The notes under the pieces are model-generated. The model did no database searches. It saw only the letters and a program-made list of their open reading frames with translations, and was not told the DNA's origin. Position numbers and translations under genes: made by a program. Of a stretch of 42,159 nt of DNA, positions 10,934 through 36,406 are shown piece after piece. Numbering within the stretch: position 1 is the first letter of the stretch; the number at the start of each line of letters is the position of its first letter. Source of the DNA: Campylobacterales bacterium (GTDB taxonomy: Bacteria > Campylobacterota > Campylobacteria > Campylobacterales > Sulfurovaceae); the NCBI GenBank assembly GCA_016937775.1, contig JAFGVX010000074.1, forward strand, positions 1-42,159, given 5' to 3'.

Positions 10934-12220
10934 ATGAGTAAAAACATTTTTGATTTTACCTCTGTTAGTGATGAGTGTATCAAGTGTGGGAAATGTATCC
11001 CCGTTTGTACTATTCATCAGATAAACCCCGATGAGGTTACGAGCCCAAGAGGATTTATTGATCTTTTGGGAGCTTATAAAAGAGGAGATTTGGAGCTTGA
11101 TAAAAACGCAAAAAATATCTTTGAGAGTTGTTTTTTATGTACAAATTGTGTAGATGTCTGCCCTAACTCTTTAGCGACGGATATGGTTATAGAAGAAGTA
11201 CGAGCAGACATTGCTGACAAGTATGGTATTAGTTGGTTTAAGCGAGTATTTTTTTGGCTTTTAAAGTATCGATTTGTGATGGATATTGCGATGAAATTAG
11301 GCTATAGTGTACGAACTTGTATATTGAGTGAAGATATACAAGGACGAGGATTGAAAGCTAGATTTTCACTGCCAATGATTAAAAAAGGAAGGTTGCTGCC
11401 TTCAATGGCGAGTAAAAGTTTTTTAAATAGCTACCCTGAGCATATCACTTCAAGTAAACCGAAACAAAAGGTGGCTATCTTTATCGGTTGTTTAGCAAAC
11501 TATAACTATACGACTATTGGTGATAGTCTTGTAGAGATACTCCAAGCACTTGAAATTGAGATATTTATTCCCAAAGATCAGCTCTGTTGCGGGGCACCGG
11601 CGTATTTTACCGGCGATGTAGGTTCCGTGGAGTATTTGATTGAGAAAAATGTAGCTTATTTTGAGACTTTTATAGATGAGTATGATGCGATGATTATTCC
11701 GGAAGCAACTTGTAGTGCTATGATCAAACATGATTGGATAACTTTTTGTAAAAATCACTCAAAAAGTGAGCTTATTCCCCGTATCGAGAAGCTTTTACCT
11801 AAGATTCATATGGCAACTGATTGGCTCTATAAAAATAGCGAGTTGAAATCACTTTTAGCAAAAAAAGGAAAACGATTTGATAGTGTAGTTACTTATCATG
11901 ATCCTTGTCATGCAAGAAAAGTACAAGGTATCTACAAAGAGCCGAGAGAGCTTTTGGCGCAAAATTACCCTCTTGTTGAAATGAGTGATTCAAATCGTTG
12001 TTGCGGGTTTGGCGGTGTGACGATGCAGAGTGAAAAATTTAAATTTGCTGAGCTTGCCGGAAAACCAAAAGTAGCCATGATAAGAGATACGGGTGCAACA
12101 TATGTAAGCGCTGAGTGCTCTGCATGTAGAGTGCAACTGAGTGAAGCGATGCATAGTGCAGGCGTTGAGACGATATTTAAAAATCCACTCGAGCTTATAG
12201 CTGAGGCACTTAAGGGTTAA
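10934..12220 (+). CDS. (Fe-S)-binding protein with 4Fe-4S and CCG domains (GlcF/HdrD-like)
   Basis: Two ferredoxin motifs (CIKCGKCIPVC, CFLCTNCVDVC) and CCG-type motifs (CCGAP, CCGFGG). Confidence 0.85.
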   Translation: MSKNIFDFTSVSDECIKCGKCIPVCTIHQINPDEVTSPRGFIDLLGAYKRGDLELDKNAKNIFESCFLCTNCVDVCPNSLATDMVIEEVRADIADKYGISWFKRVFFWLLKYRFVMDIAMKLGYSVRTCILSEDIQGRGLKARFSLPMIKKGRLLPSMASKSFLNSYPEHITSSKPKQKVAIFIGCLANYNYTTIGDSLVEILQALEIEIFIPKDQLCCGAPAYFTGDVGSVEYLIEKNVAYFETFIDEYDAMIIPEATCSAMIKHDWITFCKNHSKSELIPRIEKLLPKIHMATDWLYKNSELKSLLAKKGKRFDSVVTYHDPCHARKVQGIYKEPRELLAQNYPLVEMSDSNRCCGFGGVTMQSEKFKFAELAGKPKVAMIRDTGATYVSAECSACRVQLSEAMHSAGVETIFKNPLELIAEALKG

Positions 12221-12861
12221 ATTATATCGATTGCTACTATATTTTCTTTATTGCTCAATTTTTCATGAATTTCAAGCATTTTCCAAAGTGATGGAGAGTA
12301 TTCTTTAAAGCTCTTGTTTCCCAATTTTATGGTGGGCTCTTTAGCTGTTGCTTCTACAATCATAGCGATGCCAGACTCTTTTTTCTTGATGCTGCAGCGA
12401 TTGAGTATATCGACACATTCAAAATCGATTGAATCTACCACAATAAGGAGCATTTTTTTGTATTTTAAAGATTTGATTGCCCCCACTTTAAGTACCGTAT
12501 TTGATGTTTGATAGAGATCTGATACCGTTGTGATATAGCCTTTATTTTCTGCTATTATTGAGAGGTAAGATGCAGGTGTGTTGTGTACGGAGTTTTGAAA
12601 ATGTGTAGGACTAAGTGTTTTTTGTTCATTGATTGCTTTGAGTATCTCAAAAGTCTCTACAACTTCACCATAAGCATTGCCTATAACTATAGGTAAATCA
12701 AACGCATCAAGCTTATGAGCTAGATAGATTGCAATGCGGGCATTTCTTGTGAGTCTTCTGCGAATCATCATATTGGAGACGATCTCTTTTTCATTGAGAG
12801 TCGTAAATTTTTCATCATCGGCTATAAATTCACTTGCTAGAATATTAAGATTAATCTTCAT
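12217..12861 (-). CDS. Half-size beta-ketoacyl synthase-like chain-length factor (ApeC-like)
   Basis: ARIAIYLAHK...NAYGEVVETFEIL..SPTHFQNSVHNTPASYLSIIAENKG resembles the KAS N-terminal domain of aryl polyene clusters; lacks the catalytic Cys; start lies inside the 3' end of the KAS gene. Confidence 0.75.
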   Translation of the reverse strand: MKINLNILASEFIADDEKFTTLNEKEIVSNMMIRRRLTRNARIAIYLAHKLDAFDLPIVIGNAYGEVVETFEILKAINEQKTLSPTHFQNSVHNTPASYLSIIAENKGYITTVSDLYQTSNTVLKVGAIKSLKYKKMLLIVVDSIDFECVDILNRCSIKKKESGIAMIVEATAKEPTIKLGNKSFKEYSPSLWKMLEIHEKLSNKENIVAIDII

Positions 12862-13957
12862 CTACGCTCCCAATTACAATAGAAACGTTGCCACCACCAA
12901 AGCCAAAAGCATTTGAGAGTATATATCGCACATCACTTTTTATAGGATTAAGTATTAGATTGATATCACTATCAAGTTTATTGTCTATGTTAGCCGATGG
13001 GGGGATAATCTTATGTTTGATACACATCGCACTGATTGCTACCTCTAGGGCGCCGCAAGCACCAAGTGTATGTCCCGTGATAGCTTTAGTTGATGAAGTG
13101 GGAGTTTGATTGCCAAAAATTGCAGATATTGCTAAGGCTTCTGTTTCATCGTTTGCGACAGTGCCGGTACCATGTGCGTTGATATAGTCTATATCGCTTG
13201 GCTGTAGGCCGGCATTGTGGAGTGCCTCTCTCATCGCAGCAATTGCACCTTCTCCCTCAGGATGAGGGTGTGTGATATTATAAGCATCTGAGCTTGTACC
13301 GCATCCAAGTATCTCAACACATCCTTTGTATTTGTTTGATGATAACGCAAGAACAGCGATACCTTCTGCAACATTGATACCTTGTCTCATGCTATCAAAA
13401 GGTTTTGTTGGAGCATTAGAAGCAATACCTAAAGCATGAAATCCATTTACTGCTGAACGGCTAAGCTCATCTGCGCCTACGATGATAACATTTTTTACTA
13501 GATCGTTGGAGATCATATCGTAAGCGAGATCAATTGCGGCGGAACTACTTGTGCATGCAGTTGAAAAAGAGGTAGCGGATGCAAAACCGAAAGTATCAAT
13601 AAGTTCATCAGCAATTGATCTAATTGACAATCGTTCAGCTGTGATATTTTCACAATTATGATCTTTAAAATAGGCATCTTCTGCGAAGCACATGCCTCCA
13701 ACCGACGAGCCAACCAACAGCGTTACTTCTTTGGGATTAAAAGAGGGAAGATTTTTGATAGTTTTTGCAACATTTTGTTTGATAAGCTCAAAGAAGTCGG
13801 TATCATCTTGAATTTTACCGAGAGGGATGCTAAGATTATCTATGTAATTATCTTGGTAGCTCACGCCACTTTTTTTCTTTAAGATAGCATCAAATATCTC
13901 TTCTATATTCATTCCTGCACAACATGTAGCATTATAGTCATTGATATAGACTCTCAT
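12851..13957 (-). CDS. Beta-ketoacyl-ACP synthase (FabF-like, ApeO-like)
   Basis: FSTACTSSSAA (Cys), INAHGTGTVANDETEA (His), AITGHTLGACGALE (His). Confidence 0.9.
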   Translation of the reverse strand: MRVYINDYNATCCAGMNIEEIFDAILKKKSGVSYQDNYIDNLSIPLGKIQDDTDFFELIKQNVAKTIKNLPSFNPKEVTLLVGSSVGGMCFAEDAYFKDHNCENITAERLSIRSIADELIDTFGFASATSFSTACTSSSAAIDLAYDMISNDLVKNVIIVGADELSRSAVNGFHALGIASNAPTKPFDSMRQGINVAEGIAVLALSSNKYKGCVEILGCGTSSDAYNITHPHPEGEGAIAAMREALHNAGLQPSDIDYINAHGTGTVANDETEALAISAIFGNQTPTSSTKAITGHTLGACGALEVAISAMCIKHKIIPPSANIDNKLDSDINLILNPIKSDVRYILSNAFGFGGGNVSIVIGSVDED

Positions 13958-14943
13958 AGCTTGATACTTCTTAGAAATTTATAAGTTTGGTGCTCTTTTT
14001 GTATCGCTTCATCAAGTTTTGAAACAATATCATCCAAGGAATGCTCTTTTTCTCTACAAACCTTTGAAGTAGCAAAAGCAAACATTCTCCAGGCATCACC
14101 CGCATCTGTCATCATTTTTGATGCTTCTGTAAGTTCATTTGAATCAAAAAATTTATTTGCTTCAGATAAAAAAGCAGCATACATCAAACGAAAACCACCC
14201 CCGCCTGTACCTATCTCTTCTTGCATTCTGATAATATGCCCTAGATATAAAGAACGATATCTTTTATCTTTGTTATTTTCAAGCTTTAAAATTGCCTTTT
14301 TCATACTCTTCATCCCATTAATACCGATCCATGGCATAAAATTATAGAGCATCATCCCACTTGTTTTTTTAATCGCTTTTTTAATCGCTTTTTTTAAGTC
14401 GATATCTTTTGATACACCCTCTATAGTATAGCATGCACCATTAGGTGCAAATACGCCTTTTGCAAATCTAGCTTTGTCGAGTTCATCGATGCCAACTTCT
14501 TGTGGCGTATCAAATACCGGATCACTTATAAGAAATTTATCATCCTTGATGCCATAAGCAAGCAAGTTATGTGCATTAAAATGAAAACGCATATCTTGAG
14601 GAAAATAAGGTAACCAATAGACAGATGTTTGTAAACCTACCAATTTTCCCGATTCAAGCATAGTTATAAGATCCTCTTTTGCACTTTTTGCATCTTTGTA
14701 TTTTTTGATATTTAAAGTGAGCCCTAGTCTTTTCGTGATAGTTTTGATGATATGTTTAGGGGGCATTCTATAGGCAATAAGCGGCATGCCGTCAAGTTTG
14801 ATTATTGGAAGATAAGCAAAAGTAATACCGTTGCCGATACCAAATGCCATAGCTTCACTAATCTGAAAACCTTGATGTGTTATCAAAGAGGAGACAACCC
14901 CTGATTCGCAATGCGCTGCATGCATATGCTTGAAGTTTGTCAT
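13954..14943 (-). CDS. BtrH N-terminal domain / DUF4872-type protein, putative acyl-ACP-dependent acyltransferase
   Basis: HMHAAHCESGVVSSLITHQGFQISEAMAFGIGNGITF and HNLLAYGIKDDKFLISDP resemble the BtrH/C39-like papain fold with Cys and His-Asp. Confidence 0.72.
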   Translation of the reverse strand: MTNFKHMHAAHCESGVVSSLITHQGFQISEAMAFGIGNGITFAYLPIIKLDGMPLIAYRMPPKHIIKTITKRLGLTLNIKKYKDAKSAKEDLITMLESGKLVGLQTSVYWLPYFPQDMRFHFNAHNLLAYGIKDDKFLISDPVFDTPQEVGIDELDKARFAKGVFAPNGACYTIEGVSKDIDLKKAIKKAIKKTSGMMLYNFMPWIGINGMKSMKKAILKLENNKDKRYRSLYLGHIIRMQEEIGTGGGGFRLMYAAFLSEANKFFDSNELTEASKMMTDAGDAWRMFAFATSKVCREKEHSLDDIVSKLDEAIQKEHQTYKFLRSIKL

Positions 14944-15353
14944 TGTTCCAACTTTGTGGGATCTAGAAGTTCGGATTGTGTAATATCAAATACATCGGCA
15001 TAGACAGCCAGTCTCGAGGGTTTTAGTCTTAAAAAACGTTTATATTTGAAATCTCTTTTTATACTTATTTGCCAAAATCCTGTGCATTCGCTGAGTGTTT
15101 TGAGTGTCATTCTTCTTTTGTACATCCACACTTCAAGTGGTGATTTTTCTTGTTTTATATATTGCTCAAAAGCCTCTTTTTCAAGTCGCTTGAACTCTTC
15201 AACTGCTTGCATGGTGGCAAGCTCTTCTATCTCCCATCCACTGCTTGGTTCGATATCATAACTTCCATCATCATTTGATATATACAGTGCTTTTTTGACA
15301 CCCCTATGTGTGCAGATATTATCTTGAGGGGTGTCATTTTTTTTCATCTTCAT
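14940..15353 (-). CDS. Small conserved cluster protein with XRE/HTH-like C-terminus
   Basis: PLEVWMYKRRMTLKTLSECTGFWQISIKRDFKYKRFLRLKPSRLAVYADVFDITQSELL resembles an XRE helix-turn-helix; overlaps both neighbours by 4 nt. Confidence 0.55.
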   Translation of the reverse strand: MKMKKNDTPQDNICTHRGVKKALYISNDDGSYDIEPSSGWEIEELATMQAVEEFKRLEKEAFEQYIKQEKSPLEVWMYKRRMTLKTLSECTGFWQISIKRDFKYKRFLRLKPSRLAVYADVFDITQSELLDPTKLEQ

Positions 15354-16492
15354 ACAACCTCAAGAAGGATAAATGCTGTCGAAAATCTACCACTTTCCGG
15401 TACATAACATAACATCTTTTCCCCTCTTGTTAATTTATCTGAGTTAAATATCTCATCGAGGATTATATAGATAGAGGCACTCCCTGTGTTTCCTTTAGAG
15501 GTCAAGTTAGTGAACCATTTTTCTTGTGGGATAGCAAAATCTATTTTTTCAAGTCCACTAGCAACTTTGTCTTTAAAATATTCAGATGAATAGTGTGGTA
15601 AGAACCAGTCTATATCCTCAATTTTTAAACCTCTTTTTTCAATAATCTCTTTGAGAGGTTTACTTACTGTATACTCTATGATATTTTCATTAAGTAGCTT
15701 TACATCTTGTTCGATGGCAAATATATTTTTTTCCATCCACTCTAAGGGTTCGAAGTGTCTAAAGGGAGTGTAATTCCCAACTTCATCTTTATGGGCTCCT
15801 GCTGTCATGCACGGAGGCATTTCACCGGCATACGATATGATGTCAATCCACTTAATTTTTAAAGAGAGGGCATCTTTGTTAGGCTTGGGAGACAGAAGCA
15901 TAGCTCCTGCACCATCTGAGAGCATCCATCGTAAAAAATCTTTTCCAAAAGCAAGTTCCGGCTTGCTTGCAACATCTCCTTCAATAAGGGCTGTTTGTCC
16001 AAACATTTCAGCTCTTGTGTGGAGCGATACCGCTTCCGATCCTGAGCATACAGCATTTTTATGTTGACTTAAGGCAACCGACATATAGGCATATTTCATA
16101 GCAGTAACACCACTAAGGCATATGCCCGATGTTGCTATGGCTTCACACTTTTTTATTCCAAGTTCCCCTTGGGTCATGAGTGCATGATTTGGCATGATAA
16201 AATCAGGAAGCGTTGTACCACAAGCAATACACTCAATATCATCAGCTAAAAAATTCTCATCAAAGAGCCCTTTAATTGCATTAGCAGTAATCTCATAGTT
16301 TGTAAAAAGAGGTTTTCTTGTTTTTGGATCTAGCACATAGTATCGTTGTTTAATTCCATTATTTCTAAGTACAATACTTTTTGCTCGCGATCTGATTCCG
16401 CCTATATAACCAAGTACATTTTCGATTTCACTATTATCAATCGGTTTATTTGGCAGAAAAGATGAAATTTTATTTATGTACACATTTTGCAT
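15350..16492 (-). CDS. darB: 3-oxoacyl-ACP synthase III-like, DarB homolog (dialkylresorcinol ketosynthase)
   Basis: KAS III-like ATSGICLSGVTAMKYAYMSV (Cys), DWFLPHYSSEYF (His), KGNTGSASIYIIL (Asn); adjacent to a DarA homolog. Confidence 0.8.
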   Translation of the reverse strand: MQNVYINKISSFLPNKPIDNSEIENVLGYIGGIRSRAKSIVLRNNGIKQRYYVLDPKTRKPLFTNYEITANAIKGLFDENFLADDIECIACGTTLPDFIMPNHALMTQGELGIKKCEAIATSGICLSGVTAMKYAYMSVALSQHKNAVCSGSEAVSLHTRAEMFGQTALIEGDVASKPELAFGKDFLRWMLSDGAGAMLLSPKPNKDALSLKIKWIDIISYAGEMPPCMTAGAHKDEVGNYTPFRHFEPLEWMEKNIFAIEQDVKLLNENIIEYTVSKPLKEIIEKRGLKIEDIDWFLPHYSSEYFKDKVASGLEKIDFAIPQEKWFTNLTSKGNTGSASIYIILDEIFNSDKLTRGEKMLCYVPESGRFSTAFILLEVV

Positions 16493-16500
16493 AATACTCT

Positions 16501-17418
16501 TTATCTTCCCGAGGGTAACTCTATTTTTGAGAGTATTTTATCCATTTTTTCTTTAAATAAGCTCCTAAAAATAGAGCTAAGAGCCATATTGAGCGGTACA
16601 ATCGTTACGATTAAGGTAAAAAGAAATACAACATAAATAAATACTATCGGTCGGCGAATAAGTGCACCTCTTTTCCCGAAGAGTCTAATGAGTTTTCCCC
16701 ATATTCGAAAGCTTCTTTTTGCTATCTTCTCGGAAAATACAAATCTACCATCAGCTTTAACCGCACCAAGATTTTTTAACATCGATGTATAATCTTTTTC
16801 ATAATCGGCTTGGAGTTTTTCTGCAATCCTTTGACCGAATCTTTCACTCGCTTTGATATCTTCTTTACTAATGCCCGCTGCCGAAAGTCCCCAGAATGCA
16901 TCTCTTTTTCCTGTAAGCATCCATCTTGGTGTTGTAATAAAACTCTCAAGTGGCCCGCTTTGATCAGTAAGCACAATGTTGTCAATGAGAACTCCTCCGC
17001 ATTTTTTGATAAGCTCTTTCATAACTTCTTGAGCTTCTATCCACATATTTCTGCATCCTATGACTGTAATGACAGGTTTGTTTTTGAGTATTTTTTTTAC
17101 AGTATCTGAAAGCATAAAAGAAGCAATAGGCATAGAAGGAGATAAAAACCATGGCTGATACCCCAAGATAATAAGATCATAATCGTTTTCTTTGAGTATA
17201 AAAGGTTTAAGTTTCGGAGCATCTAGATATACGGTTTCAGGGAAAGCATCAAAGAATTTAAAAAAGCTCCATGGAAATGTAAACTTCTCTTCGCTTTCTA
17301 TCTTGAGAAAATCCAAATCAATCTCTTTACTCTTTTTGAGGGGCGAGAGCATGGTCTTCAAGAGTCTTTCTAGTTGTCCTGTTTGAGAGTAATATACGAC
17401 TAATACTTTTTTCTTCAT
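16501..17418 (-). CDS. darA: DarA-like dialkylresorcinol condensing enzyme (flavodoxin-like N-terminus, C-terminal hydrophobic segment)
   Basis: MKKKVLVVYYSQTGQLERLLKTMLSPL...FTFPWSFFKFFDAFPETVY resembles DarA-type proteins in flexirubin clusters; adjacent darB. Confidence 0.78.
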   Translation of the reverse strand: MKKKVLVVYYSQTGQLERLLKTMLSPLKKSKEIDLDFLKIESEEKFTFPWSFFKFFDAFPETVYLDAPKLKPFILKENDYDLIILGYQPWFLSPSMPIASFMLSDTVKKILKNKPVITVIGCRNMWIEAQEVMKELIKKCGGVLIDNIVLTDQSGPLESFITTPRWMLTGKRDAFWGLSAAGISKEDIKASERFGQRIAEKLQADYEKDYTSMLKNLGAVKADGRFVFSEKIAKRSFRIWGKLIRLFGKRGALIRRPIVFIYVVFLFTLIVTIVPLNMALSSIFRSLFKEKMDKILSKIELPSGR

Positions 17419-17479
17419 CTATCGTCTCCTTTTGTTAAGTAAAGATACCCTAAAATAGTCCAATTTAAAAAGGGATTTT
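17419..17479. promoter_or_regulatory. 61-bp divergent promoter region between darA (-) and the hot-dog gene (+)
   Basis: Plus strand: TAAAAT at 17451-17456 and AGGGAT RBS before ATG 17480; minus strand: AAGGAG RBS upstream of darA. Confidence 0.5.
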
Positions 17480-17839
17480 ATGGAAAACTTGCGACTTCCA
17501 CATGGTAAATTTCTTGTATTTGTTGATTCACTGTTGGAAAAAAAGAGTGATACCGTGAGATTTAAAACGCACTTTCCTTTTATTCCGACACTCCCGATGC
17601 TGTGTGAGGCAGGTGCACAAGGCAGTAGTTTTTTTTCATTTTCTCCACACTGTAATGCCGCTGTTGTTTTGTCATATAGAGATGTGAGATTACTACAAAA
17701 ACTTCGTACGATTATGCCCCAAATCTCTCTTAGTATAACCAATTCAATAGGAGATTCATATCTTTTTGATTTTGAAGTATATGAAGATGATATTATTGTT
17801 GCTAGTGGAAAGATTGCAATGTTTTGTATCACTATTTAA
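17480..17839 (+). CDS. Hot-dog 3-hydroxyacyl-ACP dehydratase-like protein (ApeP-like)
   Basis: LPHGKFLVFVDSLL and THFPFIPTLPMLCEAGAQ (His + Glu as in FabZ); RBS AGGGAT. Confidence 0.72.
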   Translation: MENLRLPHGKFLVFVDSLLEKKSDTVRFKTHFPFIPTLPMLCEAGAQGSSFFSFSPHCNAAVVLSYRDVRLLQKLRTIMPQISLSITNSIGDSYLFDFEVYEDDIIVASGKIAMFCITI

Positions 17840-19061
17840 CCCCTTTACTTAAAAGTGGTTTTCGTATTTTTTTACCCAAAGAAGTTTTTGGTATATAATC
17901 GCTAATAATAATCTTACACTCGATATGTACCCCTCCAAAAAAGTCATGCATTGATCGCTTGATATGTCTTTTATTAATGTTTTTATTTTTTGAGACTACA
18001 TATATTGTGAGTGTCTCGCCTCGTATGTTTTTTGGATCATACGTAGCTTCGACAAGTGCTTCATCGATACTATCCATATCTTCTAAAAATCGCTCCATCT
18101 CAACAACAGAGAGTCTTTTGCCACCAATCTTTACTATCTCGACTACTCTTCCGGTTATCTTAAATCTCTCATCTTGCAATGCAACCATCTCAGTTGTTTT
18201 ATAAGGAGAGGCTATTTTAGTAAGTGTGTCATCGTAAACATAATGGGAAGTATATGGCGAATCTACATAGAGGATATCCTCTATTGTTGCTATTGATACA
18301 TCCTGCAAGGGAGTCCAAAATATCTCGTTTGAACTTCTTTTTGCTACACCTCCTGTTTCGCTGGAGCCATATATCTGCATAAGAGTTGTTTTATATTTTT
18401 TCTCGAAAGCCTCTGCTTCATAAGGTTCAAGCGGACCACTTGAAGAGATAAAAAGGGTATTTGTGAGCGTGTAACTGTAGTTGCCTTTTAGCATTGAACG
18501 TATAAAAACGGGGTTGGTTATGCAAAGTGTCGGTTTGTTTGAGCAGATATCTAGTATCTCATTGGGCAAGAAATGTTCTTTTGTGATGATATCCAGTTGC
18601 ATTGCCAGAGGAATGCTAAAGCCAAATAAAAACCCATAGATGTGGAAAAAAGGTACAGTAACTAGACACTGTTTAAAATTCCATTTTTGAAGCCATTGCA
18701 ACTGTGCTTTTACTTCACTTTCTATATTTTTTTGATTTTTAAGTACACCTATCGGATTGCCGGTGGTGCCCGAAGTAAAAATGATGATTTTTGTATCGTC
18801 GGGAAGTGCATTATCGCCGGAGAGATTTTTTTGGCACAACTCTTGTGCTTTTTGTGCGCTTGAATGCATAGCATGATCAAAAAGTACAGGAATATCACCT
18901 CTATTTAAAGTCTTGATTATTTGATCTACTTGATCGAGTTTATTTGTGTTTGTTATTATTGATAAAGAGGGATTATGCTCTTGAAAATCTTCTCGAATGA
19001 GAATATTTTTTGTAACGACACTTTCATCATCGTAGATCAATGTTATTTTACTCATTTGCAA
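17832..19061 (-). CDS. AMP-dependent acyl/aryl-CoA(ACP) ligase, aryl polyene cluster type
   Basis: IIIFTSGTTGNPIGVLKN (A3 motif), LMQIYGSSETGG (A5), KITGRVVEIVKIGGKRLS, TSLGKKIRK. Confidence 0.88.
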   Translation of the reverse strand: MQMSKITLIYDDESVVTKNILIREDFQEHNPSLSIITNTNKLDQVDQIIKTLNRGDIPVLFDHAMHSSAQKAQELCQKNLSGDNALPDDTKIIIFTSGTTGNPIGVLKNQKNIESEVKAQLQWLQKWNFKQCLVTVPFFHIYGFLFGFSIPLAMQLDIITKEHFLPNEILDICSNKPTLCITNPVFIRSMLKGNYSYTLTNTLFISSSGPLEPYEAEAFEKKYKTTLMQIYGSSETGGVAKRSSNEIFWTPLQDVSIATIEDILYVDSPYTSHYVYDDTLTKIASPYKTTEMVALQDERFKITGRVVEIVKIGGKRLSVVEMERFLEDMDSIDEALVEATYDPKNIRGETLTIYVVSKNKNINKRHIKRSMHDFFGGVHIECKIIISDYIPKTSLGKKIRKPLLSKGVK

Positions 19062-22917: not shown

Positions 22918-23733
22918 TTATCTTAAGCTATCAATAGAAAAAGATAAATATTCTCTTTCCCCGATTCGACTTATTATAGCTATTTTCTTGCACTCTTTTT
23001 TTTCTAAACACTGCAAAGCTTGCAAGGAGCTATTTGAGCATAAATAGTAGGAATCTTTATCGTTTGATCTTATCTTTTCATCATCGATATAGATCGATCT
23101 GTTTTCTTCGATATGTTTGAGCGCATCTTCAATATTTTTATATCTTTGAGGTTCTTGCATAATAGCTTTTGCATTTTCTTTTTGTGTAGAGAGTCTAACC
23201 CAAAAGCTTCCCTCTTGAAGTTTTTTATTTGAAATTTCTATTTTTTCTTTAAATTTATCAAGTGGTAAGGCTATCTCATCTATACAGCCGATAAGTGCAG
23301 AACTGTTTTTTTTATTTTTGATATCAAAATATGCCCCATCAAGCGCTATACTAAATGGTGAGTGCCTATTGGATATCGTAAAATTTCCTCCGTGAAGTTG
23401 AAGAGATTGCGCAATATGATAATTGACCATATTGGTCGATGATGCGATAAAAGTAAATGGCATTGGAAGTAGAGAGTTGTTATGAACTTGGTCAAGCATA
23501 TCAATTGTTTCAGTAATGCAACCGTTACGAGTACCTATATGAAGGGCGCAATTTGATTCAATATTTTCAATATCATTCATATTATATACTCCGGCAAGTG
23601 CTAAGATGATATATCGATTGATTCTACGATATTTTTTCCCGTTTTTTAATTCAAGTTCTTTTTTTATCTCTTTTGTCGGTCTATTTTGATCTGTTAAGAA
23701 ATAAGAAAAGTCTTCAATATATATTGTTGTCAC
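22918..23733 (-). CDS. Second half-size KAS-like chain-length-factor protein lacking the active-site Cys
   Basis: PMPFTFIASSTNMVNYHIAQSLQLHGGNFTISN aligns with the KAS N-domain without Cys. GTG at 23733 after GGAGGGATTTG overlaps the KAS stop (GTGA), preferred over the 23802 ORF start. Confidence 0.68.
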   Translation of the reverse strand: MTTIYIEDFSYFLTDQNRPTKEIKKELELKNGKKYRRINRYIILALAGVYNMNDIENIESNCALHIGTRNGCITETIDMLDQVHNNSLLPMPFTFIASSTNMVNYHIAQSLQLHGGNFTISNRHSPFSIALDGAYFDIKNKKNSSALIGCIDEIALPLDKFKEKIEISNKKLQEGSFWVRLSTQKENAKAIMQEPQRYKNIEDALKHIEENRSIYIDDEKIRSNDKDSYYLCSNSSLQALQCLEKKECKKIAIISRIGEREYLSFSIDSLR

Positions 23734-24866
23734 CAAATCCCTCCATATCGTATCACAAGTACTGTTCCGTTGCCTCCAAAGCCAAAATGATTTACAAGAC
23801 AAACGCCTTGACTTTGAATTTTTATCTCTTCTAAATTCGGAGTAATATCGATTTCTTCATCCTTGGTTTTAAAACCAAATGTTTTAGGAATAAAACCCTC
23901 TTGGAGCGTAAAATATAAAATTGCTAATTCTAAAGTTCCGCATCCGCCAAGTGTATGCCCTACATAAGGTTTCAATGCAAGGATAGGCGGTATATTATTG
24001 AATAGCAATTTTAATCCATTGCCTTCAGCAAGATCGTTATTATAACTTCCCGTGGCATGTGCTTTTATAAATGTTATTTCATCTTTATAGATAGAGGCAT
24101 CTTTGAGTGCATTTTCTATGGTTTTTGCTATAAGAGTGCCTTCGATTTGATGAGAAGTCGGTGAGGATATGTCACAGGTATTGTCTCCTCCGCATATTTC
24201 AAAGAAAAAACCGTCATTCGCACCTATTTCCTCAATAAGCATCGCTGCACACCCCTCACCTAAGACGATGCCTTTTCGCTCTTTATCAAAAGGTCTACAT
24301 ATATCATCGCTTAAAAGCCCAAGTGTCTCAAAGCCCGACATCGTTAAAAGATTATAAAATTCAAAGCCTACAACGATAGCACGTTTAAATCTTTTACTCT
24401 GTAGCCCTCTTTGCGCATAAAGCAGAGCGCTTGCAGAAGAGGTGCAAGCTGTAAGAAAGAGTGTCACCTCACCCCCTATATTTAGATTTTTAGCTAATGT
24501 TTCACCAATTTTGCCATACCCGATAAACGGAAGCATATTTTCGTTGCTTTTTTTATATATCTCTTCAGAACAAGGAATGTTCATTGATGTTGAGCCTATA
24601 ATAAGGGCACATTCATCAAGCATATCTTGAGTAAGTTTTGCCTTCTTGATAAGTTGTTTTGTTATTTTTTGCAAAATGGCATCAAAATCCTCAGGATTAT
24701 CGATTTTATTTTGGAGTATTCTTTTATAATTTCTTTTTCTTGTTTCTCTTCCGAAAGGAAAAACTATAGGTGTTATATCCGGCTCTTTTTTTATATTTTG
24801 TATGATACTCTTTCGGTTATCTCCCAATGAGCAAACAGCTACCGCCTCTTTTATCCCCACTCGCAT
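23730..24866 (-). CDS. Beta-ketoacyl-ACP synthase (FabF/FabB-like)
   Basis: FLTACTSSASALLYAQ, IKAHATGSYNND, PYVGHTLGGCGTLELA triad motifs. Confidence 0.9.
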   Translation of the reverse strand: MRVGIKEAVAVCSLGDNRKSIIQNIKKEPDITPIVFPFGRETRKRNYKRILQNKIDNPEDFDAILQKITKQLIKKAKLTQDMLDECALIIGSTSMNIPCSEEIYKKSNENMLPFIGYGKIGETLAKNLNIGGEVTLFLTACTSSASALLYAQRGLQSKRFKRAIVVGFEFYNLLTMSGFETLGLLSDDICRPFDKERKGIVLGEGCAAMLIEEIGANDGFFFEICGGDNTCDISSPTSHQIEGTLIAKTIENALKDASIYKDEITFIKAHATGSYNNDLAEGNGLKLLFNNIPPILALKPYVGHTLGGCGTLELAILYFTLQEGFIPKTFGFKTKDEEIDITPNLEEIKIQSQGVCLVNHFGFGGNGTVLVIRYGGIW

Positions 24867-24871
24867 AACAT

Positions 24872-25141
24872 CTACTCCGGCTGAATATAATCAGCAAGAG
24901 CATTTATCGATGTAAACACTCTTCGCAATTCCTTGCTGTCGCTTAGATTGACATTATATGCTTTTTGTAACTCTATAGATATCTGTAGCGCATCTATAGA
25001 ATCAAGCCCCAAAACACTCTCATTGCCAAACATCACGTCATTATCCCCGACATCTTGTGTGTCAACATCTTTTTCGCAAGCATCGATTATCAGTTGTTTT
25101 AAATTCTCTTTTAATTTTTTGTCTTTTGAGCCTTTCATCAC
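24872..25141 (-). CDS. Acyl carrier protein
   Basis: LGLDSIDALQISIELQKAYN 4'-phosphopantetheine Ser motif. Confidence 0.88.
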   Translation of the reverse strand: MMKGSKDKKLKENLKQLIIDACEKDVDTQDVGDNDVMFGNESVLGLDSIDALQISIELQKAYNVNLSDSKELRRVFTSINALADYIQPE

Positions 25142-26310
25142 CCCTCCGTAACTTCTTTTTTAAGTTTATAGCTTGCCACCATCAAAGACATGCTACCAAA
25201 TAATGTAAGTGATATAATGGGCATTATTGTCTTTGATAAGTCTCCATTATATAGAAAAATAGCTAAAAATGCCTCTAGGGACCATGCCATCGGTGAGAGA
25301 TTTGTGATATATTGCATAAATTGTGGCATTATGAATATTGGCACCATTACGCCTCCGAGTGCTGCAAAAATTATATTGAGTAGTCCTCCAAGGCTAACAG
25401 CTTGTTCTGTTGTTTTTACAAAAGAAGATATTGCAAGCGCAAAAGATATAGAAGCAAAAGATATAAAAGAAGAAACAAGGATTAAAAGGGGCCAATCTTG
25501 TAAGTGTACCATTAATTTTTCACCTCCTAAAAGAGGCACTAGATATATTCCCATCAATACCATAAGAATCATCTGGATAGTGTTTATAATGTAATAAGGT
25601 ATGAGTTTTGAGAGCAGTAGTTCCCCAACAGAGATATTCATAACTGCCAATCGCGAAAGAGTCTCTTGTCTTCTTTCATTGATAAAAGTGTTTGAGATAG
25701 GAATTACGATGAAAAACATAGAAAATATAAGCCAAGCCGGAACGCTTTGTTGTACAGAAGAGGGGCGCTTTGTTTTTTTATCGGAATATCCGATATATTC
25801 TTCTCGGATAATATTTTTGTCCTTAAGTATCTCATTTTTATCTTCTATACTCAGCCAAGGGTTAAGCGAGGATATCTGTTTGTTTGTTTCATATTGCATC
25901 GCTATCTTATAGATATTTTCACGGAATAAGAGCGCAATGTCCGGAGATACTTTCGGTGAGAGATAAAGTGTAATTTTAGGAGTATCTTTTTGCTCTTCTA
26001 TGTAAATTCCCAAGAGGATATCATTAGCATCCATCTGCTTTTTGATATTCGCGTCTTGTGTAGTGCTAAGCTCAAAACTGTTTGATTTTTTGAGTGCTTG
26101 CGTAATCGTATCTGTAAGTTCACTTTTTTCTTGAGCGTAAAGGATTGTTTTAAAAGAGATATTTTTGTGTTCAGAAAATGCATCTTGCATCGCAAGACTC
26201 ATAATCAATATAAAAGCTACAGGCATCACAAAGAGTACTAAGAGCGTATGGATATCCCTACTCATAAGAATAAACTCTTTTTTAATATTTGCAAGATACC
26301 TTTTTAACAT
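25138..26310 (-). CDS. ABC-2 type transporter permease
   Basis: N-terminal TM, long extracytoplasmic domain, C-terminal TM bundle; overlaps the ABC ATPase gene. Confidence 0.88.
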   Translation of the reverse strand: MLKRYLANIKKEFILMSRDIHTLLVLFVMPVAFILIMSLAMQDAFSEHKNISFKTILYAQEKSELTDTITQALKKSNSFELSTTQDANIKKQMDANDILLGIYIEEQKDTPKITLYLSPKVSPDIALLFRENIYKIAMQYETNKQISSLNPWLSIEDKNEILKDKNIIREEYIGYSDKKTKRPSSVQQSVPAWLIFSMFFIVIPISNTFINERRQETLSRLAVMNISVGELLLSKLIPYYIINTIQMILMVLMGIYLVPLLGGEKLMVHLQDWPLLILVSSFISFASISFALAISSFVKTTEQAVSLGGLLNIIFAALGGVMVPIFIMPQFMQYITNLSPMAWSLEAFLAIFLYNGDLSKTIMPIISLTLFGSMSLMVASYKLKKEVTEG

Positions 26311-27191
26311 AGATGTTCTTTCTCTAAAATATTGAGGAATTGCTCTAGGGAGTTTCCGCCTCCGTACATAATCTCTTCTATTTTATTGTCTTTGAGGTTT
26401 TCCAAAAGAAAAGGAAGTTCAGTTTTGAGATTGGCACTTGTGATATATATATAATTTTTTTGATTCCATTTACTTTCTTTAAGCTCAAGAGGTTTAGCAA
26501 GTCTTATCTCAGCAGTTTTAAAATCTTTAAGTAACTCGGAAGTGTTCCCTTGTGCCAATATTTTCCCACATTCAAGAATGATAAGCGCGTCGCAAATTTT
26601 TTCTACCTCTTCAAGATAGTGTGATGTATAAATAATAGTGACATTTTCTTTTTTTACAATCATCTCAAGCGCATTTAATATGATTTTTTTTGTTTGTGGA
26701 TCGACGCCGACTGTTGGTTCATCCAAAAAGAGTATTTCAGGATTACCGAGTAGACCGATGGCAAGATTGAGCCTTTTTTGCATACCACCTGAATATTTTG
26801 AAGCGATTATGTTAATTTGTTCATCAAGATCAACAATATTAACAACTCTTGTTATCTCGGAGTCAAGATGTTGACCGCTCAGCCCTAATATTGCACCGAA
26901 ATATCGAAGATTTTCCAATCCACTAAGATCAAAGTAGATCGCTGATTTTTGAGGTACATATCCTATCTTCGCGCGCACGAGATTTTTTTGTTGAGATGTC
27001 ATAAATTCATCAATCTTTACATATCCGCTATCTTCACTCAGCAGACCACACATAATCTTCATAAGAGTAGTTTTGCCGGCTCCGTTTCTTCCTATAAGGC
27101 CACAGATGGAGCCTTTGTCAACAGAAAAAGAGAGAGTGTCTATAACCTTTTTGTCGCCGAATGTTTTGGTAAGTTCTTTAACAACAATCAA
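26304..27191 (-). CDS. ABC transporter ATP-binding protein
   Basis: Walker A GRNGAGKTTLMK, signature SGGMQKRL, Walker B EILFLDEPTVG. Confidence 0.95.
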   Translation of the reverse strand: MIVVKELTKTFGDKKVIDTLSFSVDKGSICGLIGRNGAGKTTLMKIMCGLLSEDSGYVKIDEFMTSQQKNLVRAKIGYVPQKSAIYFDLSGLENLRYFGAILGLSGQHLDSEITRVVNIVDLDEQINIIASKYSGGMQKRLNLAIGLLGNPEILFLDEPTVGVDPQTKKIILNALEMIVKKENVTIIYTSHYLEEVEKICDALIILECGKILAQGNTSELLKDFKTAEIRLAKPLELKESKWNQKNYIYITSANLKTELPFLLENLKDNKIEEIMYGGGNSLEQFLNILEKEHLC

Positions 27192-27205: not shown

Positions 27206-27457
27206 CTATGAATTTTTTTGGTTAATGAAGTCTGTCAATGTTTTTATGGAAGCAAAAACTTCTCTTGACTCTCCTGCATTATCTATCTTGATGCCGTATT
27301 GATTGTCTAGAAATATGATCAACTCAATGGCATCAACAGAATCCAACCCTAATCCTTCGTTGAACAATGGCGCATCATTTTCTATCTCATCGGCTGTTAT
27401 ATCTTCAAGATTCAAAGCCTCTATAATTTTTTGTTTTACTTCTTCATATGTTGTCAT
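27206..27457 (-). CDS. Acyl carrier protein
   Basis: NEGLGLDSVDAIELIIFLDNQYG Ser motif. Confidence 0.88.
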   Translation of the reverse strand: MTTYEEVKQKIIEALNLEDITADEIENDAPLFNEGLGLDSVDAIELIIFLDNQYGIKIDNAGESREVFASIKTLTDFINQKNS

Positions 27458-30795: not shown

Positions 30796-32005
30796 GTGTC
30801 CTGATTCTTTGTGCAAATGCGTTGAGTGATTCGTTTGGCATTTTTTTTTGAGGTGCAAGCATTATTATACGAATGGTTATACTTTTTTCTAAAGACCAAT
30901 TATAAGAGCCTTTTTTGACTAACTTTTTTGTTCCTTCGATGATAATCGGGACGATTGGAGTGTCTGATTTTAAGGAGAGAGAGAAAGCACCATTTTTAAA
31001 AGATTGTATCTCGCCATCAATACTACGAGAACCTTCCGGGAAGATGAGCACATTACTTTTTTGATCCAATTTTTTCAAAAGTTCATGGAGTGCATTAAAG
31101 CCAAATCCATCTACTATTCCAAGAAGTTTGGCAATAGGTTTAAGGTACCATGAAAGAGCTTCTTTTTTGTTTGTAAGATGATAAATGTCAATAAGATATG
31201 ATCCAAGCAAGGGATAATCAAGCCAGGATTGGTGTGTAGAAATGTAGATATAGTTTTGTGTGTCAGATATTTCCGGATCTTTTTTGAGATCGATTTTTTC
31301 TATATTGGGTATAAGTAGAAAGTAGAATCGAAATATTTTTGAGACGATGTATTGAAATATCACATGCGGTTTTTTATATCTAAAAAGTACAAAAAGAAAA
31401 TAGATTAGCATCGTAGGAAAAAACATCACAGTGATAAGTCCCCCAAAGAGACCATAGCCAATGACATTACTTGTCCACTGTCGCAACTCTTTTCTATGCA
31501 CAAAAAGTATCTGAACAGTAATTGCTAAACCTATATAGAGATACCATCCTAAAAATGAATATATTGCCCATATTTTGATGCTATAGTTCATAAAGAGGAT
31601 GATATGAATGAGCGAATTTATCGAAAGTACAACAATCCAATAGAGATGAGAGAGTTTTATATCACGCTCCTCTTGTGTGGTGAGCGCTCTTTTTTTTATT
31701 TTTTGGATGATATGCATCAGAGGATATTTTTTTTGGGTAACCGAGTAGATAAAAAATGTTAAAAATAAGATAGAAACGATAAGCGGATATGCCTTAATGG
31801 GCTCAAAATCACCTATAATAAATGCCGTTAAACCTAAAAGTGCTGCCAATAACGGTGATAAAAATTCTTTGAGTTCACTCTTTTTTAAGAAGTTATAAAA
31901 TATGAAGAGAACAGAGATTAAAACTAGTATTCCACCTGCTACTCTAGAGCCAAAGTAGACGTATGTCAATACACTAAGAGGGACATAGAGAGCAAAAAAT
32001 ATCAT
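30761..32005 (-). CDS. 1-acyl-glycerol-3-phosphate acyltransferase-like with N-terminal multi-TM domain
   Basis: STHQSWLDYPLL (HX4D), IFPEGSRSIDGEIQSFKNGAFSLS; N-terminal ~200 aa strongly hydrophobic. Confidence 0.82.
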   Translation of the reverse strand: MIFFALYVPLSVLTYVYFGSRVAGGILVLISVLFIFYNFLKKSELKEFLSPLLAALLGLTAFIIGDFEPIKAYPLIVSILFLTFFIYSVTQKKYPLMHIIQKIKKRALTTQEERDIKLSHLYWIVVLSINSLIHIILFMNYSIKIWAIYSFLGWYLYIGLAITVQILFVHRKELRQWTSNVIGYGLFGGLITVMFFPTMLIYFLFVLFRYKKPHVIFQYIVSKIFRFYFLLIPNIEKIDLKKDPEISDTQNYIYISTHQSWLDYPLLGSYLIDIYHLTNKKEALSWYLKPIAKLLGIVDGFGFNALHELLKKLDQKSNVLIFPEGSRSIDGEIQSFKNGAFSLSLKSDTPIVPIIIEGTKKLVKKGSYNWSLEKSITIRIIMLAPQKKMPNESLNAFAQRIRTLMIVSQKNRND

Positions 32006-32247
32006 GCTTTAGGAGCATGCGCTTTGATTTTATCGACAACATCTCCTACACTTTTTATGGAGTTGCCCATCTCTCTTTCAAATATAAAATTATACTCTGC
32101 TTCAAGTGCACAGATGAGGTCAAACATATCTAAGCTATCAAGCTCTAAATCTTCTTCGAGTAGTGTATCCAAAGTGATATCGGCTAGATCTTTTTCAAAA
32201 TGTTCAACTATAATCTCTTGAACTCTTTTTGCTATATCTGATTGCAT
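32002..32247 (-). CDS. Acyl carrier protein
   Basis: EEDLELDSLDMFDLICALEAEYN. Confidence 0.88.
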   Translation of the reverse strand: MQSDIAKRVQEIIVEHFEKDLADITLDTLLEEDLELDSLDMFDLICALEAEYNFIFEREMGNSIKSVGDVVDKIKAHAPKA

Positions 32248-32254
32248 ATTTCTC

Positions 32255-33475
32255 CTAAATTTTCTTTAAAATAATCGATGTATTGATACCGCCGAATGCA
32301 AAATTATTATTCATTGCATATGTGATATCGCACTCTCTGTGAGAATATAGATAATCAAGATCGGCGCACTGTTCATCTAGAACATTTAAATTTTTATTTG
32401 CAATGAGAGTTGAATTTTGTATCATAAAAAGAGACACAATGGTTTCAAATGCTCCTCCACCACCAAACATATGCCCCGTATAACCTTTGATGCTACTTAT
32501 TGGAGTTTTGTTACCAAATACTCTATTGGTTGCAATGGATTCATAAATATCACCTTTTGGAGTAGCTGTTGCATGTGCATTAATATAGTCTATCTCTTCC
32601 GGGTTTATCTTTGCATCACTTAACACATTTCTCATGACATCCTCCATGCCTCGTTCTGAGGGAAGGGTAATATGATTGCCGTCGCATCCTGTTGCATATC
32701 CAGCTATTTCACCAAGTATTATAGCACCGCGACGCTTAGCATGCTCATACTCTTCTAATACTAAAGCGCCGGCACCCTCAGATACGACAAGCCCGTTTCG
32801 CTCCTTATCAAATGGTCTAGATGCCTCTTCGGGCTTTTCATTTTTACCTATTGCAGTTGCGCCCATACTGTCAAAAATACCTGCTTCAACATAGTGTAAC
32901 CCTTCCGAGCCGCCTACAAACATGATATCACTCATTCCGTATTTTATAGACTCATACCCTGCGCCGATAGCTTGAGAAGAGGCGGTGCAAGCTGAGCTTG
33001 TTGGTATATTTCTTCCGATTATTTCAAACATTACAGCAAGATTTGCGCCAACGGTATGACTCATAAATCGTAGAAACGATGTTGCGTTTTGATGTCCAAA
33101 TCCATCATTGCCCGCGACATTTTCTGCATAACTAAAAAGTGTTTCCAATCCTCCCATGGCTGAGCCAAAAGAAATCCCCGTTCGTAAATTGGATATCTGT
33201 TCTTTATTTAATCCGCTTTGAGCTATCGCTTCTTGAAGCGAGAGCGCCGCCATCATCGAAACTCTATCCATTGTTCTTCGATAATTTCTCGGTATCTCTT
33301 TAAAATCATCTTTTTCAACAACACCTGCGATACGAGATTCTAATCCATTGATCTCATCCCATTCGTGCATATATCTTATGCCGCTTTTCATCTGTTCAAA
33401 ATTACTCTTTACCTCTTGAAGCGTATTTCCGATTGGTGAACAAAAACCGATACCGGTGATGACAACACGTCTCAT
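32255..33475 (-). CDS. Beta-ketoacyl-ACP synthase II-like (FabF)
   Basis: TSSACTASSQAIGAGYESI, INAHATATPKGD, GYTGHMFGGGGAFE. Confidence 0.92.
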   Translation of the reverse strand: MRRVVITGIGFCSPIGNTLQEVKSNFEQMKSGIRYMHEWDEINGLESRIAGVVEKDDFKEIPRNYRRTMDRVSMMAALSLQEAIAQSGLNKEQISNLRTGISFGSAMGGLETLFSYAENVAGNDGFGHQNATSFLRFMSHTVGANLAVMFEIIGRNIPTSSACTASSQAIGAGYESIKYGMSDIMFVGGSEGLHYVEAGIFDSMGATAIGKNEKPEEASRPFDKERNGLVVSEGAGALVLEEYEHAKRRGAIILGEIAGYATGCDGNHITLPSERGMEDVMRNVLSDAKINPEEIDYINAHATATPKGDIYESIATNRVFGNKTPISSIKGYTGHMFGGGGAFETIVSLFMIQNSTLIANKNLNVLDEQCADLDYLYSHRECDITYAMNNNFAFGGINTSIILKKI

Positions 33476-34164
33476 CGTACCATCCCACCTGAGATATTTA
33501 TAGTTTCAGCTGTTATATAGTTTGCTTTATCGGCAAGAAAGAATATGACTTCAGCTACCTCTAAAGCATTACCAAATCGTTTCATTGGGATGAGCTTTTG
33601 AAAGTCTTTTTCGTTAAAATCTGCCGTCATCTCAGAGTGGATAAATCCTGGGACAACGCAATTGACTCTGATATTGTGTCGTGCAACTTCAATAGCAAGT
33701 GATTTGCTCATCGAGATCATTCCCCCTTTGCTTGCAGCATAATTTGCCTGCCCTGCATTACCTACGACTCCTGCTATAGAAGCTACATTGATAATTGCAC
33801 CGTTTTTCTTTTTTTGCATTGCAGGTAGAAGTGCTTTTGTAACATAAAATGTTCCGTTTAAATTTGTTTGAATAATATCTTCCCAATCATTATCTTCCAT
33901 CCAAAAAAAAAGTTTATCGTTTGTTTTGCCTGCATTATTGACAAGCACATCCACTTCTATGTTTTGTAGTGCACTTTTTACATCTTTGCTTGAAGCGATG
34001 TCAAATTTGATGATTTGCGCATCTTTTAACTCTTTTGCGAGTGCTTCGGCTTTTGCTTGATTGCTATGATAGTGGATATAGACAAAGTAGCCGTTATCTG
34101 CAAAATATCTCGTGCATGCTTCACCTATAGCTCCAGTTGCACCCGTGATAAGTACTTTTTTCAT
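33472..34164 (-). CDS. 3-oxoacyl-ACP reductase (FabG/ApeQ-like SDR)
   Basis: VLITGATGAIGEA, VNNAGKTND, ANYAASKGG (YxxxK). Confidence 0.92.
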   Translation of the reverse strand: MKKVLITGATGAIGEACTRYFADNGYFVYIHYHSNQAKAEALAKELKDAQIIKFDIASSKDVKSALQNIEVDVLVNNAGKTNDKLFFWMEDNDWEDIIQTNLNGTFYVTKALLPAMQKKKNGAIINVASIAGVVGNAGQANYAASKGGMISMSKSLAIEVARHNIRVNCVVPGFIHSEMTADFNEKDFQKLIPMKRFGNALEVAEVIFFLADKANYITAETINISGGMVR

Positions 34165-35681
34165 ACTAATTCTCCTTGAAGCAGTCTTCTTTTGATGGTG
34201 TCTATATCGTTATCTAGCCTTCTATCTTCCAAGAGTGGCTCAGAGGTTTCTCTTATCTTTGTATAAAGTGTTTTAGTAAAAGGTGAGAAATTATCTACTC
34301 CTTTGATATCCACAGCTTGTGTGATACCTAACATCGCAATAGAGAGCATAGAAGCAAACTCATCTATACCGCCCTTGAGACCCAATGCCCCGGTCGTGCC
34401 CATACTTACTTTATCTTGATTCATCGATTCTGTCGATCTCGAAAATGCACTTGAGGGTAGCATCCGCATTAGTACATCCGCACTCAATGAACTTAAAGAT
34501 ATCTGCATCGCTTTGAAGCCATGATGGTATGATTTATCTGAGAGTTTGAGATTTTCCCCCAAACCTCTGTTAAACTTATCATCAACTAAGAGTGCAAACT
34601 GTTTGTCAAGAAGATCAGCCATATTAGCAAGACAAATTTTAAGTGTATCGGCAGCGTGCGCCATATATCCGCCATAAAAGTTACAGCCCGTATATATGAT
34701 ATTTTCTTCACAATTTATCAGTGGATTATCACTTACAGAGTTAATCTCTGTTTCTATCCATTTTTTTGCCAATTCTAAATTGTCCCATGCGACACCAAGT
34801 ATCTGCGGGATGCATCGTATGGAGTATCTATCTTGTATATTGTGATTTTCGCTGTCAAAAAAGTTTTTATATCTGCTGAGTCTATTGTGTACCAGTGTTG
34901 CGCCTTCTAATTTCTTTTTGAGGTTTCTTGCACACTGTATTTGTCCGCTAAAAGGTTTAATTGCATGCACAAAAGGTTCGATAGCTGTTGTATCTGCCTC
35001 CATTGCTTCAAAAAGTCCTGCGCAAAAACTCTCAAAACTTAAAAGTAGTCTTTCAAAATATTTTATTTGTGCTACCAAAATACCCGTCATCACAGAAGTG
35101 CCGTTCATGATTGCCAAAGCTTCTTTCGGTTTAAATACGTAAGGTTTTAGTCCACACATTTCAAGTGCTTCTATGGAAGGTGTAAGCTTACCTTTAAAGA
35201 GTACTTCTCTTTCTCCTGCGAGAGTTGCGGCTATATATGATAACGGCGTGAGATCACCGCTTGCACCGACTGATCCTTTAGACGGAATAGCAGGGTAGAT
35301 ACCGTTTTCGATAAGTGCCACAATCGCTTCAAGTAACTCCATACTTACCCCGGAGTGTCCTTTAGAGATGCTGATAAGTCTTATAATCATCGTATAAAGT
35401 ATCTCTTCGCTTGAGAGTATATCGCCTATGCCACAACCGTGAAATCTATAGAGATTTACTTGTAAAATGTCGGCATCATTACATACAAGGTAATTTTTGC
35501 CTGAATCTCCATATCCTGTTGTCACTCCATAGATTGGATTTCCTTCTTCTATCTCTTTAAGTAGGAGTGCTTGAGCCGATCTAATCTTTTGAGTAAAAGC
35601 ATTATCTTTACTAAGCTTTATCTTTTGTGCTGATACTACTTGCTCAAAGGGTATATGATCACCTCTAATTTCTAAAGTCAT
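34161..35681 (-). CDS. MIO-type aromatic amino acid ammonia-lyase (HAL/TAL family)
   Basis: YGVTTGYGDSG; GSVGASGDLTPLSY (Ala-Ser-Gly MIO motif); typical 506 aa length. Confidence 0.92.
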   Translation of the reverse strand: MTLEIRGDHIPFEQVVSAQKIKLSKDNAFTQKIRSAQALLLKEIEEGNPIYGVTTGYGDSGKNYLVCNDADILQVNLYRFHGCGIGDILSSEEILYTMIIRLISISKGHSGVSMELLEAIVALIENGIYPAIPSKGSVGASGDLTPLSYIAATLAGEREVLFKGKLTPSIEALEMCGLKPYVFKPKEALAIMNGTSVMTGILVAQIKYFERLLLSFESFCAGLFEAMEADTTAIEPFVHAIKPFSGQIQCARNLKKKLEGATLVHNRLSRYKNFFDSENHNIQDRYSIRCIPQILGVAWDNLELAKKWIETEINSVSDNPLINCEENIIYTGCNFYGGYMAHAADTLKICLANMADLLDKQFALLVDDKFNRGLGENLKLSDKSYHHGFKAMQISLSSLSADVLMRMLPSSAFSRSTESMNQDKVSMGTTGALGLKGGIDEFASMLSIAMLGITQAVDIKGVDNFSPFTKTLYTKIRETSEPLLEDRRLDNDIDTIKRRLLQGELV

Positions 35682-36406
35682 GCGCTGTGTTCCTTTGTAG
35701 TGTGTTGTTTATAAAAACCTTTTAGTAAAAAAATGCGTTTGATAACCAATATGGTATGTAAAATAATCATACGAAAATTATCTCTGAGCTTATCAAAGTG
35801 GGTAACTCTATCTTTTCCATAGACAGTTTTTATGAGTACCTCTTTTATCTTGCCACCTTTCCATAAAAAGTTTACTAAATTTTCTATCTCAAATTCATAT
35901 CTTGATGCTGTAGAATTATAGTATAAAAAATTTATAGGATAGAGTCTAAATCCCGTTTGCGTATCTTTTACCCATATACCTGTTTCTACCCATACCCAAA
36001 AATTACCTATTAATCTGCCGATAGAAGATGATTTTGGAGGATTGCAATTATCAAAGTCTCTCACTCCTATTATCATCTGCTTATCATCTGCTTTAAAAGC
36101 GTCTAGAAATTTTGGAATATCTTCCGCAAAATGTTGTCCGTCTCCATCCATTGTCAAGCAAAACTTATAACCCCGCTCATATGCTTTTTTTGCGCCACTA
36201 CGTAAAGCAATACCTTTACCTAGGTTTGTCTTATGGCGTATGATATCTATCTTGTGAGTGTCTATAATGGTATCAAGAGGCGTATCTGAACCATCATCAA
36301 TAACGATTAAAGGAATGTTATGATGCAATACTTCCAATGTAACGTTTTGTATGCTTTTTGGATTATTGTAAACAGGGATGAGTATGCATAAATTATCTAA
36401 CTTCAA
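35678..36406 (-). CDS. Glycosyltransferase family 2 (dolichol-P-mannose synthase-like)
   Basis: ILIPVYNNPKSI, VIDDGSDTPLD, LTMDGDGQHFAED, VKDTQTGFRLYP. Confidence 0.9.
   Translation of the reverse strand: MKLDNLCILIPVYNNPKSIQNVTLEVLHHNIPLIVIDDGSDTPLDTIIDTHKIDIIRHKTNLGKGIALRSGAKKAYERGYKFCLTMDGDGQHFAEDIPKFLDAFKADDKQMIIGVRDFDNCNPPKSSSIGRLIGNFWVWVETGIWVKDTQTGFRLYPINFLYYNSTASRYEFEIENLVNFLWKGGKIKEVLIKTVYGKDRVTHFDKLRDNFRMIILHTILVIKRIFLLKGFYKQHTTKEHSA

Follow-up and report, generated by a model that had tools for sequence, protein, structure and literature searches.

Knowledge of flexirubin-type pigments dates back to 1974, and they are used as chemotaxonomic markers. Arcuflavin of Azoarcus sp. BH72 was proposed to be an ester of a polyene and a dialkylresorcinol (DAR), and its dar cluster includes, next to darD, darB and darA, a gene (darE) labeled as encoding a BtrH-like peptidase; the mutants reported there carry plasmid insertions in arcK and arcT, none in darE (PMC3949708, 2014). 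For the joining step of flexirubin in Chitinophaga pinensis, Schoner et al. (2014) suggested a ligase-like protein, FlxW, and heterologous darA and darB alone were found to yield DAR (PMC3992019). Thus, DarH, the BtrH-like protein considered here, is not needed to make DAR. As to the enzyme that joins the two halves of flexirubin, the open literature searched offers only a guess, and no functional test of a BtrH-like/DarH protein was found in the open papers searched, a scope from which subscription journals were mostly absent.

Several related enzymes have been described. BtrH is regarded as a C39-related enzyme that acylates aminoglycosides from an ACP donor (PMC10318531). CcbD has a Cys-His-Glu triad and works by a ping-pong mechanism, in which an acyl group taken from a carrier-protein thioester is moved from the Cys to an amine (PMC12945683). 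CtaG was described as a peptidyl transferase that would shift a hydroxybenzoyl group from one carrier protein onto the chain borne by another (PMC6772006).

The window analyzed here, a stretch of 42,159 nucleotides from a member of the Campylobacterales, forms contig 9 of a draft genome of 1.49 Mb with 89% completeness, and its aryl-polyene/DAR cluster extends as far as position 38.7 kb or so. The gene darH (13954-14943, on the minus strand, as are all genes of the window described below) is an intact, real open reading frame of 329 amino acids, as judged from the translation of the window. Its product has a BtrH-type layout that spans the protein, with BtrH_N (PF14399; residues 11-142, E=2.7e-46, 157.6 bits against a cut-off of 29.7) followed by DUF4872 (PF16169; residues 153-322, E=3.2e-48, 164.2 bits against a cut-off of 28). 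In addition, the NCBIfam model NF053550 (DarH_acyl, "BtrH-related acyltransferase DarH") matches it with 452.7 bits, above the curated cut-off of 300, and aligns residues 3-324 with model positions 1-324 of 325, i.e., over the whole length. The protein thus belongs to a family that NCBIfam has already named DarH, a name that is an annotation and not a demonstrated activity. The idea put forward in an earlier note on this DNA is less novel than that note implied, as both the family name and the BtrH-like protein of the Azoarcus dar cluster were already on record. The latter protein (darE, azo0290) is likened to DarH by description and not by sequence: it is BtrH-like and clustered with darD, darB and darA for arcuflavin, but unlike DarH it is labeled a peptidase.

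The conserved Cys, His and Asp of DarH occur in the order expected of a cysteine enzyme with a papain-like/C39 fold. They correspond to Cys12 (TGC, 14908-14910), His125 (CAT, 14569-14571) and Asp141 (GAT, 14521-14523), and were invariant both in 12 of 12 relatives fetched by HMM and in all members of a wider set of 42 sequences. In this wider set, His125 is part of a peptide pattern that served for fetching, which accounts in part for its invariance among these sequences, while Cys12 and Asp141 lie outside all of these patterns. The earlier note had placed AHCESG, with Cys12, at about 14908-14910, where the TGC codon was indeed found, and the motif it quoted around His125 and Asp141, HNLLAYGIKDDKFLISDP, is present as such in the translation.

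An AF2 model of DarH built from the 42 sequences (pLDDT 89.6, pTM 0.89) has a helix beginning at Cys12 and a strand at His125. In a Foldseek search against the PDB, the predicted fold matched solved members of the papain-like/C39 fold, and the full-length matches were AziU3 (8gs1, E=1.4e-10), CtaG (9qvj, 6.5e-10) and CcbD (7yn1, 8.1e-8). The C39/papain-like fold and the Cys-His-Asp layout proposed in the earlier note are therefore supported by the model and by its full-length matches, among which are carrier-protein-dependent acyl/peptidyl transferases with a catalytic Cys. Against PDB sequences, a profile of the 42 sequences gave matches at chance level only, for the most part to designed coiled coils, so the link of DarH to CcbD, CtaG and AziU3 is one of fold and not of sequence. 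The viral library BFVD yielded peptidase-like matches, all of them weak. According to PDB records, CtaG was crystallized as C11A, H128A and D144N mutants; the His-Asp spacing is 16 in both CtaG and DarH, and the Cys is one residue off. Cys12, His125 and Asp141 may thus be viewed as an invariant candidate triad that parallels the mutated residues of CtaG; the case for its assembly comes from this parallel numbering, and nothing seen in the model speaks against it.

These relatives resemble and differ from DarH in several respects. BtrH of the butirosin pathway, compared by domain and not by alignment, has the BtrH_N domain in common with DarH, but its acceptor is an aminoglycoside amine and that proposed for DarH is a phenol. 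CcbD (celesticetin) combines a full-length fold match with a catalytic Cys, a carrier-protein donor and ping-pong kinetics, but it has Glu where DarH has Asp in the triad and makes an amide with an aminosugar. CtaG (closthioamide) takes an aryl acyl donor from a carrier protein, as proposed for DarH; unlike the proposed reaction, it forms an amide to a carrier-bound beta-alanine chain, and the identity is about 12%. AziU3 (azinomycin), the best fold match at about 13% identity, had its structure determined together with that of a partner, AziU2, in a complex.

The published label of the Azoarcus protein (PMC3949708) raises the question of whether DarH could be a C39-type peptidase tied to the neighboring ABC transporter. 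The C39-like peptidase 3erv does match DarH in part, and ABC transporter genes occur in 65-68 of 80 loci described below. On the other hand, 3erv ranks after the full-length matches, which are to transferases and not to peptidases, covers only about 200 residues of DarH and has a TMq of 0.38. The linked ABC-2 transporter is encoded by genes separate from darH, and no gene for a leader-peptide substrate was seen in an unsystematic look. A peptidase role is very unlikely.

On each side, darH shares 4 nt (ATGA in both cases) with its neighbor, the gene 14940-15353 upstream and the ketosynthase (KS) gene 12851-13957 downstream, which suggests translational coupling. The earlier note had described DarH as 4 nt from its neighbor and next to darAB; the 4 nt are in fact overlaps, present on both sides, and the small gene 14940-15353 separates darH from darB (15350-16492). 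The order of transcription is darA-like (16501-17418), darB, darD (14940-15353), darH, the KS gene and a KS-like gene (12217-12861). DarB, the DAR-forming KS of the StlD/DarB family, matches NF005293 with 565.6 bits (cut-off 450). The DarA-like protein, matched by no family model, is a predicted DarB partner from position and conserved linkage only. Family matches identify the downstream KS as a beta-ketoacyl-ACP synthase of the polyene set, and the KS-like gene codes for a Ketoacyl-synt_2 (chain-length-factor-like) protein (PF13723, E=7.1e-19), PF13723 being the aryl-polyene marker of our genome surveys.

Farther upstream lie an AMP-binding acyl/aryl ligase gene (17832-19061; PF00501, E=2.3e-22), a dar-module KS with a KS-like partner (22918-24866; family matches and linkage), a dar-module ACP (24872-25141; PF00550), a dar-module ABC-2 permease and ATPase (25138-27191; family matches and linkage in the loci), an ACP that probably belongs to the polyene set (27206-27457; PF00550), and a polyene core (32002-36713; family matches) comprising ACP, KS, ketoreductase, aromatic amino acid ammonia-lyase, and glycosyltransferase-like and dehydratase-like proteins. 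The cluster holds three ACPs in all, as well as LolA-like and exporter-like genes. Between darA and the AMP-ligase gene (17419-17839) lie overlapping open reading frames, on either strand, that match no family; there is probably no real gene here, or a small unrecognized one.

We surveyed 298 Campylobacterota and 299 Pseudomonadaceae genomes, and in both surveys DarH was present only where genes for DAR and polyene are. The genomes of the first survey, drawn from the window's phylum, fall mostly in one order, with 58 genera and small genomes, and Campylobacterota are among the named database relatives. DarH occurred in 14 of the Campylobacterota genomes; those with a member of the StlD/DarB family were the identical 14, all of which carry the PF13723 marker. 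Among the Pseudomonadaceae, DarB was found in 39 genomes and DarH above its cut-off in 37, all within those 39. The Fisher p-values for co-occurrence (3e-24 and 3e-45, respectively) ignore the phylogenetic relatedness of the genomes and hence overstate the evidence. The same distribution would be expected of the other dar-module genes, i.e., the KS (23730-24866) and its partner, the ABC transporter and the ACP. Among the control genomes, none has DarH, but one, either Caulobacter vibrioides or Bacteroides ihuae, scores above the broad StlD/DarB cut-off and is a possible counterexample. In two Pseudomonadaceae genomes without DarB (G394 and G514), the DarH-like matches below the cut-off are other BtrH_N/DUF4872 proteins; such proteins lie at L157:8702-9790 and L158:8202-9272.

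In the Pseudomonadaceae, PF13723 was dropped as a means of separating polyene from non-polyene genomes, because it occurs in 39 of 39 genomes with DarB; for that reason, the two DarB genomes that lack DarH (G460 and G582) were read gene by gene. A polyene cluster is present in both (L160, L161), and their dar locus consists of darA-darB-ACP only (L154, L155), a layout that matches darABC of P. chlororaphis PCL1606. According to a title cited in PMC8719888, the darABC genes of that strain make 2-hexyl-5-propyl resorcinol. The two genomes are probably P. chlororaphis-like and may produce free DAR. They also bear on whether DarH acts earlier, by loading fatty acyl groups for DAR formation, as its place in a translationally coupled operon with darB might suggest. 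Such a role is extremely unlikely, given both these darA-darB-ACP genomes without DarH and the sufficiency of darA and darB for DAR in a heterologous host (PMC3992019).

The surveys are likewise relevant to the view that DarH acylates some other acceptor, such as a lipid or protein, with a polyene or other acyl group, and that the DAR ester comes instead from acyltransferases of the PlsC or LpxL type encoded in the polyene cluster. Genes of both types occur in the window, and in E. coli the acyltransferases ApeD/ApeJ were proposed to fix aryl polyenes to a lipid anchor (PMC8253772). However, PlsC/LpxL-type enzymes belong to polyene-only systems, and DarH, present wherever DarB is in the Campylobacterota, is missing from 41 further marker-positive genomes of that phylum, which have neither DarH nor DarB. 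We therefore give this view little chance.

The neighborhood of darH was compared in 80 named loci from Pseudomonadota, Campylobacterota and the former Deltaproteobacteria. DarH was recognized in 79 of them, DarD in 76 (and truncated at a contig end in two further loci), the ABC ATPase in 68, DarB in 66 and the dar ACP in 64, and the order DarA-DarB-DarD-DarH is kept in most. Eleven genomes, chosen because no DarB lay within 10 kb of DarH, were searched whole. Six had a strong DarB elsewhere or just past the flank (328-479 bits), and those loci were rejected as counterexamples; the other five, all metagenome-assembled drafts, gave no DarB match above 45 bits, possibly through incompleteness. 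In two Deltaproteobacteria/Syntrophaceae drafts (L016 and L022), DarD-DarH adjoin polyene-type KS and PlsC genes, with no darAB nearby, and the genome of L016 has no strong DarB match.

The small gene upstream of darH codes for a protein of 137 amino acids called DarD in the Azoarcus nomenclature ("DarG family" in NCBIfam; NF053536, 136 bits against a cut-off of 70). It mostly remains beside darH even where darAB is located elsewhere, and in most loci without DarB within 10 kb it still accompanies DarH. No DarD was detected beside darH in L024. The N-terminal stretch of DarD, about 36 residues long, is poorly ordered and carries a conserved VPQ(D/E) motif. The domain that follows is predicted with high confidence and resembles Cro/C1-type HTH proteins by AF2 and Foldseek; the HTH_26 match is weak (E=0.012). 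Candidate roles are those of a regulator or an adaptor. A likeness to AziU2, sought by fold, brought up HTH domains, none below E=0.001. That DarH is a two-subunit, carrier-protein-dependent, papain-fold maker of phenyl esters, with the HTH of DarD repurposed as an adaptor, is a tentative idea that we consider unlikely.

The main rivals to DarH for the joining step are the dar-module KS pair, acting as a C-O bond-forming KS, and the AMP-ligase (17832-19061), in which case DarH would do something else. The KS of the pair (KS2) is present in 59 of the 80 loci. The partner (22918-23802), a 294-residue open reading frame with no family match, looks like a degenerate KS, and its relatives track the dar-module KS in 49 loci. 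The KS (23730-24866) weakly matches AmcF (126 bits against a cut-off of 325), which is a KS-type acyltransferase subunit, but it retains Cys-His-His by eye, as expected of a chain-extending enzyme. A ligase has in its favor the published guess of FlxW, and in a Campylobacterota draft (L030:856-3105) an AMP-ligase gene directly precedes darH, with no DarD between. Nevertheless, the polyene clusters of both genomes that have DarB but lack DarH (L160, L161) also contain AMP-ligase matches, so AMP-ligases do not track the joining step. Within the shared dar module, moreover, DarH is alone in having a fold known from transferases that pass a group from a carrier protein to a heteroatom acceptor. 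An origin of the ester from the KS pair or the ligase appears improbable.

The evidence points to DarH acting late, after DAR formation, in a step specific to genomes with both halves of the pigment. Because of this, and because its fold is the only one of that kind in the module, DarH is the leading candidate for the enzyme that esterifies the halves of flexirubin-type pigments. We estimate a probability of about 70% that it is a cysteine acyltransferase forming the phenyl ester of a flexirubin/arcuflavin-type pigment, i.e., a polyene-DAR ester synthase, a proposal based on family, fold, the invariant candidate triad, operon position, and co-occurrence with DarB and the polyene marker. The earlier note had already suggested that DarH joins the polyene to the dialkylresorcinol; co-occurrence lends strong support to that role, which is still a putative one. 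In the proposed mechanism, an ACP would carry the completed aryl-polyenoyl chain on its phosphopantetheine thiol, and Cys12, activated by His125 and Asp141, would take over this chain, forming an acyl-enzyme. A hydroxyl group on the dialkylresorcinol that DarA/DarB produce would then attack the acyl-enzyme and yield the polyene-resorcinol ester. In this scheme the acyl-enzyme and the ester, as well as the ACP as donor and the dialkylresorcinol as acceptor, are inferred. A counterpoint is that the characterized fold relatives for which records were found form amides with amines, not phenyl esters. The novelty of DarH relative to them would be the acceptor, a phenol giving an ester in place of an amine giving an amide.

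If DarH joins the two halves, then the last coupling step of flexirubin-type pigments becomes testable, and the BtrH/C39 fold would gain a phenyl-ester-forming member. Moreover, darH would then be a marker that tells makers of polyene-resorcinol esters from makers of free dialkylresorcinols.
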